From Chitinophaga pinensis (GTDB taxonomy: Bacteria; Bacteroidota; Bacteroidia; NS11-12g; UBA9320): a DNA stretch of 38,783 bases. Shown in pieces: positions 13,612 to 19,320 of this stretch. Every line of letters starts with the position of its first letter. Within the stretch, counting starts at the first letter, position 1. The position numbers were made by a program, and so were the translations under genes. A model generated the notes under the pieces. That model had not been told where the DNA came from and made no database searches. It was given only the letters and a program-made list of their open reading frames with translations. The stretch is from positions 1 through 38,783 of the forward strand of contig CAMDXE010000007.1 in the NCBI GenBank assembly GCA_945878925.1, written 5' to 3'.

Positions 13612-16600
13612 ATGAAAAATTTCACTGCTCCAAATACTCAATGGCCTAAAAGCGAATTGCTGCTAAAGCTTGATGAGTTTATTCGCAAGTACTATAAAAA
13701 TAGACTTTTGCAAGGAGCTATATTTTTTGTTGGAGCCGCACTAACATTCTTTTTAATCGTTTCGTTGCTCGAATATTTTGGGCGTTTCAATACGGCTTTT
13801 CGAACCTTGCTTTTTTACAGTTATATTCTCTTTACAGCGGTTATAATGTTTCGCTGGATGGCGGTTCCTATTTTTAAATTATACAAAATTGGCGAGCGAC
13901 TCGATTATGAGGCTGCCTCTGATATTATTGGCAAACATTTTGGCTCCATACAAGACAAATTATTAAACACACTGCAGCTCAACAAACAATTGCAGAACGA
14001 ATTTGAGAATAGGTTTTTAATAGCCTCTATCGAGCAAAAAACATCCGAATTAAGGCCCATTAAATTTTCGACGGCCGTAGATTTTAAAGGAAATAAGCGC
14101 TACCTTAAATTTGCAATTGGGCCCATGTGCATGCTTATATTAATTATGATTATTGCACCCGGATTTAAAGAAACAACCACTCGCCTCATAAACCATTCGA
14201 AACACTATGCCACCCCACCGCCTTTTACCTTTGTTTTAAATACCAAAAATTTGGTGGCTGGGCAAAACGAAGATTTTGAAATAGACCTAGGCATTACTGG
14301 CAATGTGGTGCCAGACGAGGTGTATATTGTTACCGAAGGCAATCGCTTTAAAATGAAAAAGGAAGGTGCGGCCACGTTTAAATTCACCTTAAAAAATGTA
14401 CAAAAATCGTTCGATTTTCATTTCGAATCCAGTAATTTTAGCTCAGATGCCTATCATTTAGCGGTAAAACAAAACCCAGTATTATTAGATTTTAGCATCC
14501 TTTTAGATTACCCCTCCTATACCGGAAGGCCCGACGAATCGCTCGTAAATATTGGCGATCTTACGGTGCCGGCCGGAACCAAAATACATTGGAAATTTAA
14601 CACAAAACATGTTCAAACTATTAAATTAAGTTTTAGCAATGCCACAACTCAAGCCGTCAAAGAAGGCGGCAATCGTTTTTCGTATACCAAAGTTTTTAAA
14701 TTGAGTGAGCGCATAAAAATAAACACCTCTAATGCCGAAGGCGATAGCCGCGATTCAATTCTTTACCAAATAAATGTTATTCCCGACGCCTATGCCCAAA
14801 TTAACTTTAGGGAACGCCGCGATAGCAGCAATTCGAAATTGATGTATTTTGTGGGCGATATATCCGACGATTACGGTTTCAATAAATTAGTGTTTCACTA
14901 TAAATTTATTGAAAGCGCCGACCCCTCCAAAAATACCGCCAACACCAAACATAGCATCATTGGTATAAACACTATACAAACGGTTCAAAATTTTTATTAC
15001 CTATGGGATTTGTCGGCATTGAATATTGCCGCAGGCGAAAAAATAGAATACTATTTCGAGATTTGGGACAACGATGCCATTAATGGCAGCAAGGCAACAC
15101 GCACTAGCAATGGAATTTTTGCGGCACCAACCCTCGAGCAAATTGAAAAACAAACCGAACAGGCCAACGAAAACATAAAAGGCGAAATGGCACAAGCAAT
15201 TAAAGACAGCAAGGCCATGGAGGAAGAAATAAAAAAACTGCAACAAAAGCTTACTGAAAAAAAATCATTGAATTGGGAAGATAAAAACCAAATTGAAGAC
15301 TTGCTTAAAAAACACCAGGACCTTCAAGAAAAAATGAAGGCCCTCATGGAAAAAAATCAAGATAAAAACAATAAGGAGTCCGAATTTAAACCAAGCGACC
15401 AAGATGAACTTGACAAAGAATCTGAATTAGAAAAATTGTTTGAAGAATTGATGGACGACGAGATGAAAAAGCTTCTTCAAAAAATGAAAGAATTGTTGCA
15501 GAACAATCAAAAAGAGGAATTGCAGGAGCAAATGGATAAATTTAAATTTAGCGACAAAGAGCTCAAAAAAAAGATAGAACGCGCCCTCGAATTATTCAAA
15601 CAGCAAGAGCTTGAAAAGAAAATGAAAGAAACGGTCGATAAGCTTGATCAGTTGGCAAAAGAGCAGGAAAAATTAGCCGAAGAAACTAAAAACGGCAAAG
15701 AAAATTCGGAGCAATTAGAAAAAAAACAAGAGGAACTGAATAAAAAATTTGAGGAACTAAAAAAAGACTTGAACGAGATAAAGGACAAAAACAAGGCCCT
15801 TGAACAACCAAATGAGCTAAAGGACACAAAAGACAAACAAGAGTCTATCGATCAAAAACAAAAAGAAAGTTTAGAACAACTCCAAAAAAAGCAGACCAAA
15901 AAAGCGTCGCCTTTGCAGAAAAAAGCCGCCGAAGAACTCAAAGAAATGAGTGAAAAAATGGAAGAAGAAATGATGGAGATGTCGGCCGAAAAACAAGAAG
16001 AGGATTACAATACCTTGCGACAGATACTCGAAAATATAATTACCGTTTCGAAAGAACAGGAAAAATTGATGAAAGATTTTAGGGCCGTGGGAGGTTATAA
16101 TCCAAAATTTGTAGAACTGGCGCAAAATCAAAAAAAACTGAGAGACGATACAAAAATTATTGAAGATTCCTTATTTGCATTAAGCAAACGGGTGATACAA
16201 ATAAAGTCGTTCATCAACAAAGAAATCGGGTTGGTAAATTATAATATGGACAAGGCGCTTGAAAATTTAGGCTACCGCAACATTCCAAGCTTGGTAAATA
16301 ACGAACACTATATTATGACCAGTTTGAACAACCTTGGTTTGATGCTAAGCGAGGTATTGAAGCAAATGCAAGAACAGATGAAAAACGCAAAGCCCAATCC
16401 AAATTGCAAAAATCCAAAACCCGGTAAAGGCAAAAAACCTGGCATGAAAGAAATGAAGGAAATGCAAGATAAGATGAATAAAGAGATGGGTGAAATGATG
16501 AAAAACGGAAAAGGCAAAAAACCGGCATCCAAAGAATTGGCTCAAATGGCCGCTCAACAATCCGCCTTGCGAAAAAAATTAAGAGATCTCGAAAAAGAAC

Positions 16601-16956
16601 TCGAAAAAGAAGGCCAAGGTAAAAAATTAGGCGACCTCCAAAAAACTCAAGATTTGATGGATGAGGTAGAAAAAGACCTAGTCAACAAACGAATTAACGA
16701 AGAAACGCTTCGCCGTCAACGCGAAATTCTTACCCGTTTGCTCGACCACGAACGCGCCGAAAAAGAACAGGAACAAGATGAAGAACGCAAATCGAACGAA
16801 GGCAAAGATGTGAGTCGCCCATTGCCTCCATCCTTGCAAGATTATTTAAAACAACAACAAAAAGGACAAGAATTGTTGCGAACGGTATCGCCAAATCTTA
16901 ATCCGTATTACAAAGAAAAAGTAAAAACTTATTTTAAATCCTTAGGCCATCATTAA
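13612..16956 (+). CDS. DUF4175-like large membrane-anchored coiled-coil protein
   Basis: 1114 aa. Two N-terminal TM segments, beta-rich extracytoplasmic region, then about 550 aa of K/E/Q/M-rich helix; C-terminal SLQDYLKQQQKGQELLRTVSPNLNPYYKEKVKTYFKSL. Confidence 0.75.
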   Translation: MKNFTAPNTQWPKSELLLKLDEFIRKYYKNRLLQGAIFFVGAALTFFLIVSLLEYFGRFNTAFRTLLFYSYILFTAVIMFRWMAVPIFKLYKIGERLDYEAASDIIGKHFGSIQDKLLNTLQLNKQLQNEFENRFLIASIEQKTSELRPIKFSTAVDFKGNKRYLKFAIGPMCMLILIMIIAPGFKETTTRLINHSKHYATPPPFTFVLNTKNLVAGQNEDFEIDLGITGNVVPDEVYIVTEGNRFKMKKEGAATFKFTLKNVQKSFDFHFESSNFSSDAYHLAVKQNPVLLDFSILLDYPSYTGRPDESLVNIGDLTVPAGTKIHWKFNTKHVQTIKLSFSNATTQAVKEGGNRFSYTKVFKLSERIKINTSNAEGDSRDSILYQINVIPDAYAQINFRERRDSSNSKLMYFVGDISDDYGFNKLVFHYKFIESADPSKNTANTKHSIIGINTIQTVQNFYYLWDLSALNIAAGEKIEYYFEIWDNDAINGSKATRTSNGIFAAPTLEQIEKQTEQANENIKGEMAQAIKDSKAMEEEIKKLQQKLTEKKSLNWEDKNQIEDLLKKHQDLQEKMKALMEKNQDKNNKESEFKPSDQDELDKESELEKLFEELMDDEMKKLLQKMKELLQNNQKEELQEQMDKFKFSDKELKKKIERALELFKQQELEKKMKETVDKLDQLAKEQEKLAEETKNGKENSEQLEKKQEELNKKFEELKKDLNEIKDKNKALEQPNELKDTKDKQESIDQKQKESLEQLQKKQTKKASPLQKKAAEELKEMSEKMEEEMMEMSAEKQEEDYNTLRQILENIITVSKEQEKLMKDFRAVGGYNPKFVELAQNQKKLRDDTKIIEDSLFALSKRVIQIKSFINKEIGLVNYNMDKALENLGYRNIPSLVNNEHYIMTSLNNLGLMLSEVLKQMQEQMKNAKPNPNCKNPKPGKGKKPGMKEMKEMQDKMNKEMGEMMKNGKGKKPASKELAQMAAQQSALRKKLRDLEKELEKEGQGKKLGDLQKTQDLMDEVEKDLVNKRINEETLRRQREILTRLLDHERAEKEQEQDEERKSNEGKDVSRPLPPSLQDYLKQQQKGQELLRTVSPNLNPYYKEKVKTYFKSLGHH

Positions 16957-19028: not shown

Positions 19029-19060
19029 TTGCTAATCCAAAAACTTTACACTTACCTTTG
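19029..19060 (+). promoter_or_regulatory. Putative Bacteroidota housekeeping promoter (TTG-N21-TACCTTTG) driving the intergenic RNA
   Basis: TTG at 19029-19031, TACCTTTG at 19053-19060 (exact TAnnTTTG), immediately before the structured segment. Confidence 0.65.
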
Positions 19061-19065
19061 TGTTG

Positions 19066-19259
19066 AAGGGCTGGCAGAATTGAAAAATTTAATACTAAAA
19101 TAATACCGGCTGAAGTCAAATGTCAATGTCAGGCTTTTTTCAACCTTAGGGTGATCCTTTCAAGTTGCTATTGGCAAGTTGAGACGACGTAAGAAGACAG
19201 AGATACCCGACAGGCCAAAACTTGCTTTAAAAGGATTTTTTCATCCTCAGCCCTTTTTT
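19066..19259 (+). ncRNA. Candidate structured ncRNA or leader RNA of about 194 nt
   Basis: Terminal stem AAGGGCTG (19066-19073)/CAGCCCTT (19248-19255); ATCCTTTCAAGTT (19154-19166) pairs with AACTTG+AAAGGAT (19219-19224, 19230-19236); TTGGC (19171-19175)/GCCAA (19214-19218); ends in T-run 19254-19259; own promoter; no ORF of note. Confidence 0.6.
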
Positions 19260-19320
19260 GTTTTCTTTTTTATTAATATGTTTTATAGAGGCTAACCATT
19301 TATCGACACCTGCAATAAAT

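Follow-up and report, generated by a model that had tools for sequence, protein, structure and literature searches.

A probable divergent 6S RNA encoded between glyA and an OMP-like gene of a Chitinophaga pinensis contig

On a contig of Chitinophaga pinensis, glyA and an OMP-like gene run in the same direction, and between them lies a segment of about 195 nt whose ends pair with each other and which follows a promoter motif of its own. The question raised by this locus is whether an RNA is made from it, and whether such an RNA belongs to a known class or to a new one. 6S RNA is a widespread, near-universal bacterial RNA that restrains RNA polymerase. A previous reading of the letters without database searches (the sequence-only reading) noted a 6S-like size, found the layout at odds with a clean 6S fold and allowed for a different or new class. 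Here, the locus is considered within the whole stretch of 38,783 nucleotides that was analysed (the window) and in comparisons with related genomes. We conclude that the RNA is very probably a divergent 6S RNA (ssrS-like), i.e. a promoter mimic acting on RNA polymerase, where the role at the polymerase is assigned by homology.

Promoter, ends and distribution of the gene

The following features delimit the gene; the closing stem and the -7 box served to place the 5′ end of the RNA, and the U-run its 3′ end.

19029..19031, + strand: putative -33-like element TTG, 21-nt spacer to the -7 box
19053..19060, + strand: putative -7 box TACCTTTG, fitting the primary-sigma consensus TAnnTTTG of Bacteroidota
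19066..19260, + strand: probable 6S RNA gene, ~195 nt, matched by model R3 (see below); conserved body, flanks not conserved
19254-19259, + strand: terminal U-run, into which the 3′ strand of the closing stem runs

The promoter proposed in the sequence-only reading, i.e. TTG, a 21-nt spacer and an exact TACCTTTG box, has correct coordinates, and its motif is kept in homologues. TAnnTTTG is the consensus of the Bacteroidota primary sigma factor (PMC7366714), and the arrangement TTG-N21-TAnnTTTG is kept in the window and in the five genus homologues having intact upstream DNA. Among 48 homologues of the lineage, an exact TAnnTTTG adjoins the RNA start in 37, where 1-5 nt separate it from the start of the model, and TnnnTTTG does so in 45. 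In comparisons of the five full-length genus copies, the conserved body opens with AAGGGCTGGCAGAATTGAAAAATTTAATAC and closes with CAGCCCTTTTTT, and the flanking DNA is unconserved. The U-run was likewise seen where it had been claimed, after the closing stem, and no credible ORF of at least 50 aa covers the RNA, as had been stated. At the sequence level this supports a structured ncRNA of 6S-like size with a promoter of its own and a terminator at its end. Independent transcription from a primary-sigma promoter is a feature of 6S RNA, and the conserved TAnnTTTG motif agrees with it by sequence. No tRNA or tmRNA was found in the window. Elsewhere in the window, a long ORF of 1114 aa occupies positions 13612-16956; membrane segments lie at its N terminus, and a very long part of it is charged, rich in Q, E and K, and resembles a coiled coil.

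When 59 relatives were searched at the DNA level, each of the six other genus members proved to have the element, at 76-92% identity, and five of these six homologues are full-length copies; the carriers are Bacteroidia genomes assembled from metagenomes, of which two bear the label Chitinophaga pinensis. A covariance model of the genus sequences (R1) recovered full-length copies, with E ~1e-8 to 1e-20, from most genomes of the family and also from many that belong to a second family in the same order. Two further covariance models were used: R2 was built from the 48 lineage homologues only, with no Rfam alignment, and R3 is a merged model trained on, among others, the window and some Rfam-family loci. 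R3 gave one match in 33 of 39 family genomes and matched 88 of 242 class genomes, where some of the matches hold by construction because the window and those loci are in the training set. The window, itself a training member, was matched at 19064-19262 with 152.1 bits and E 3.7e-33. This is the one clear R3 match of its genome (152 bits), the runner-up having 23.9 bits (E 0.05), and no second, better 6S RNA was found elsewhere in it at E < 0.05; the gene is single-copy.

R3 matched nothing in many good-quality genomes of the order's second family (genera g13, g15 and part of g14); their 6S RNAs may have diverged still further, or the gene may really have been lost. Two near-identical 6S copies were observed in genome G185, at C3:61119-61307 (L128) and C7:46668-46857 (L129), each with a TTACTTTTG promoter; they are possibly a recent duplication, recalling 6S-1/6S-2 pairs. 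In genome G154, R3 matched C37:11960-12161 (L130) and C93:5478-5674 (L131), whose strongly different sequences point either to divergent paralogues or to assembly contamination.

Fold supported by the homologues

The minimum free energy of the single sequence is unremarkable (z = -1.0, with 31 of 200 shuffles equally stable), and therefore the case for a structured RNA rests on comparison. The 48 lineage homologues were aligned (alignment A4), and the fold is as follows.

19066..19074, + strand: closing stem, 5′ strand, pairs with 19247-19255; compensatory changes in 9/9 pairs, 97.7% paired in the 48 homologues
19081..19087, + strand: inner closing (downstream-duplex-like) helix TGAAAAA, pairs with 19237-19243
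19088..19107, + strand: central bubble, 5′ strand, unpaired in the model and A/U-rich; assigned by analogy with 6S RNA
19108..19130, + strand: apical stem, 5′ strand, pairs with 19196-19216
19143..19152, + strand: small hairpin ACCTTAGGGT at the apical junction; 92.6% paired, 3/3 pairs compensatory
19155..19187, + strand: variable apical hairpin; length and sequence vary, pairing is kept
19196..19216, + strand: apical stem, 3′ strand, pairs with 19108-19130
19217..19236, + strand: central bubble, 3′ strand AAAACTTGCTTTAAAAGGAT, with a weak internal hairpin 19221-19223/19231-19233
19247..19255, + strand: closing stem, 3′ strand, pairs with 19066-19074

Over the whole structure, A4 has 91.5% paired cells, and 40 of 48 pairs change on both sides. 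The covariation score is 0.510 compared with 0.182 in shuffles and ~0.1 once partners were slid by one column, where it should be considered that the covariation alignments were fitted to the covariance model and the modelled structure is thereby favoured. The closing stem had been read as AAGGGCTG at 19066-19073 pairing with CAGCCCTT at 19248-19255, and compensatory changes in all nine pairs, far beyond chance, bear this out; its forms among homologues include AAGGGCTG/CAGCCCTT, AAGGTCGG/CCGACCTT and AGAGTCCGG/CCGGACTCT. Both conservation and covariation in related genomes, for which the sequence-only reading had called, were found in this stem. The apical stem consists of four helices, 82-100% paired in A4, with compensatory changes in 14/15 pairs. 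The small hairpin has the form CCUU(A/C)GGG, and the upper seven pairs of the variable hairpin are 91.5% paired and compensatory in 7/7. The end of the apical arm is a junction with two hairpins and not one plain rod. The components of 6S RNA, i.e. ~200 nt with a closing stem, a central bubble and an apical stem, are all present with compensatory support.

The inner closing helix is 94.6% paired in A4 with a near-invariant sequence, and shows double changes across clades in alignment A5. The most conserved region is the block AATTGAAAAATT at this helix, together with the 3′ bubble strand, and by analogy with 6S RNA the block is a probable pRNA template. In 43 Bacteroidota-wide sequences, the inner closing helix and the two bubble strands, which in 6S RNA are the functional parts, hold most of the conservation, as expected if they face the active site of polymerase.

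The earlier fold thus stood in its closing stem, by covariation among the 48 homologues, and failed in its apical helices. A 13-bp helix with a 5-nt bulge had been drawn between 19154-19166 and 19219-19236 and continued by TTGGC/GCCAA and GTTG/CGAC; helix and extensions are complementary in this one sequence and are not conserved. Within the genus they are 61-74% paired and none of their pairs is changed on both sides, and over the 48 homologues they are 30-55% paired. The objection that had been raised to a 6S fold, a large one-sided bulge at 19088-19153, is absent from the covariation-supported fold; it arose because the apical fold with its 13-bp helix was wrong.

Relation to the Bacteroidota 6S families

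An Rfam scan at gathering scores found no match anywhere in the window, including for RF00013 and RF01685, the two families to which the sequence-only reading had pointed. RF01685 (6S-Flavo) gave no match to the window, and RF00013, the general 6S model, gave none in the whole genome. RF01693 (Bacteroidales-1, in the Rfam description a suggested 6S-Bacteroidales RNA) aligned to the window from end to end with 16.3 bits and E 1.9, which is not significant and compares with a gathering score of 60 bits; in the 59 relatives it gave scattered weak matches, none over cut-off and none at R1 loci. A gathering score is a curation threshold and not a biological defining feature, and we read the missed score as a result of the limited taxon sampling of the Rfam models.

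Homology to RF01685 and RF01693 was established via intermediate sequences, not by the window's own score. R2, RF01685 and RF01693 were each run over the same 242 class genomes, where RF01685 and RF01693 exceed their cut-offs in 1 and 7 genomes, respectively. R2 and RF01685 agreed in position and strand, the ends of their matches being nested, in eight genomes (G162, G181, G244, G276, G287, G312, G326, G338), R2 and RF01693 coincided in four (G133, G204, G234, G326), and the G326 locus was matched by all three models. R2 also matched five of the six loci where RF01693 passes its cut-off, with near-identical ends (L117-L121; L117 was best with 39.1 bits and E 1.5e-6, the other four being weaker), as well as most 6S-Flavo loci, where it extends at both ends (best L112, E 5.2e-6). 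A homologue from the window's family (L078) aligned with RF01685 end to end at 36.4 bits, E 0.0083 over 4227 families. Since independent models coincide at these loci, the lineage, 6S-Flavo and 6S-Bacteroidales form one family. Judged by these comparisons, the window RNA is a divergent, unannotated member of the known Bacteroidota 6S family, homologous to both of its Rfam branches, and the new class that had been envisaged is not supported.

RF01693 and RF01685 themselves coincide in seven genomes (G123, G166, G203, G261, G290, G315, G341) and look like one family split by taxon; in many class genomes there are members that both models miss at cut-off.

A 6S homologue could still have taken on a changed role, as the actinobacterial Ms1, which is described in PMC9130861 as having a 6S-related structure and binding core polymerase instead of holoenzyme. 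Divergence from the other Bacteroidota 6S RNAs would fit this, as would a primary sigma factor that recognises unusual promoters and a -10 mimic motif that is not detectable, but conservation is highest in the bubble strands and the probable pRNA template, and pRNAs have been detected for another Bacteroidota 6S RNA (PMC7366714), and we regard such a change of role as very unlikely. Still more improbable is a lineage-specific, trans-acting structured RNA that forms a new and functionally distinct class with no relation to 6S: the window has no Rfam match at gathering thresholds and its match to RF01693, taken alone, is not significant, yet R2 and the two 6S models repeatedly find the same loci, architecture and ends agree with 6S, and CAAAACTTG of the bubble strand is common to 6S-Flavo loci. 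The position between glyA and the OMP-like gene on the same strand might suggest that the segment acts in cis, as leader or terminator of the membrane-protein gene downstream, or is a glyA 3′ UTR, but this has next to no probability, since promoter and U-run of its own are conserved, 3-kb loci outside the genus keep the RNA yet match neither glyA nor tilS, and the neighbour differs within the genus (tilS directly adjoining in L035, OMP in the window), so that cis-regulation of changing neighbours is disfavoured.

Proposed mechanism and comparison with known systems

6S RNA is a ~200-nt rod with a closing stem, a central bubble and an apical stem, which mimics an open promoter and binds polymerase holoenzyme until pRNA synthesis releases it; this synthesis begins in the 5′ bubble strand, the adjoining helix is unwound, and in some species there is a 3′-bubble hairpin (PMC8876501). 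By homology with this established biology, the divergent 6S RNA of the window would imitate an open promoter. In RNA polymerase holoenzyme, the active cleft would take up the bubble 19088-19107 and 19217-19236, with the apical arm acting as upstream duplex and the inner closing helix as downstream duplex, and polymerase would be sequestered by the RNA when nutrients run low. Upon return of nucleotides, polymerase would template a short product RNA on the 5′ bubble side and the AATTGAAAAATT strand, reading the pRNA template 3′ to 5′ from about 19088-19096, and this product would open the inner closing helix and release the enzyme. We infer polymerase binding and pRNA synthesis by the window RNA from homology. 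For the -10-like element that 6S RNA in general has in the 3′ bubble strand, a copy of the TAnnTTTG box is not supported: a TAnnTTTG-like -10 mimic is not enriched, having scored 4.42 compared with 4.19 in shuffles in A4, and 4.00 compared with 4.03 in A5 (of 6). A 6S-derived RNA with a changed partner or release mechanism, e.g. Ms1-like binding of core polymerase, or recognition of the unusual Bacteroidota sigma factor by the branched apical end in place of a -10 mimic, appears unlikely.

At Rfam cut-offs, 6S RNA seems absent from this family, yet 33 of 39 genomes carry a copy, and an annotation gap is thereby filled; the RNA was overlooked because this branch of bacteria lies outside the coverage of the public models. 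A literature search for 6S and Chitinophaga found nothing. RF01685, RF01693 and this clade come together as one family, for which R3, partly by construction, reaches 88 of 242 class genomes, compared with 1 and 7 for the Rfam models. The conserved bubble strands provide a testable prediction of a pRNA template for a polymerase with the unusual sigma factor of Bacteroidota. In this phylum, dRNA-seq detected 6S RNA and pRNAs in Bacteroides thetaiotaomicron (PMC7366714), and a Flavobacterium transcriptome likewise contained 6S RNA (PMC9723704).

With 6S-Flavo (RF01685), the window RNA is connected by the loci that independent models both match in the eight genomes, and it shares CAAAACTTG in the 3′ bubble strand, whereas its inner closing helix is TTGAAAAAT/ATTTTTCAA instead of the AAACTC/GAGTTT of Flavo loci, its apical part is longer and its score lies far below the gathering score. 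With RF01693 it has in common a closing stem ending in a U-run, AATACCG before the apical stem, and a small CCUUCGGG hairpin beside a variable hairpin, the small hairpin being present in the RF01693 consensus; the inner closing helix of Bacteroidales loci, in contrast, is GAAACTC/GAGTTTC, and the window reaches 16.3 of the 60 bits. The branched apical end and the missing model match set it apart from RF00013 (E. coli ssrS, B. subtilis 6S-1), with which it agrees in size, central bubble and closing stem, and its 3′-bubble hairpin resembles the B. subtilis kind (PMC8876501).
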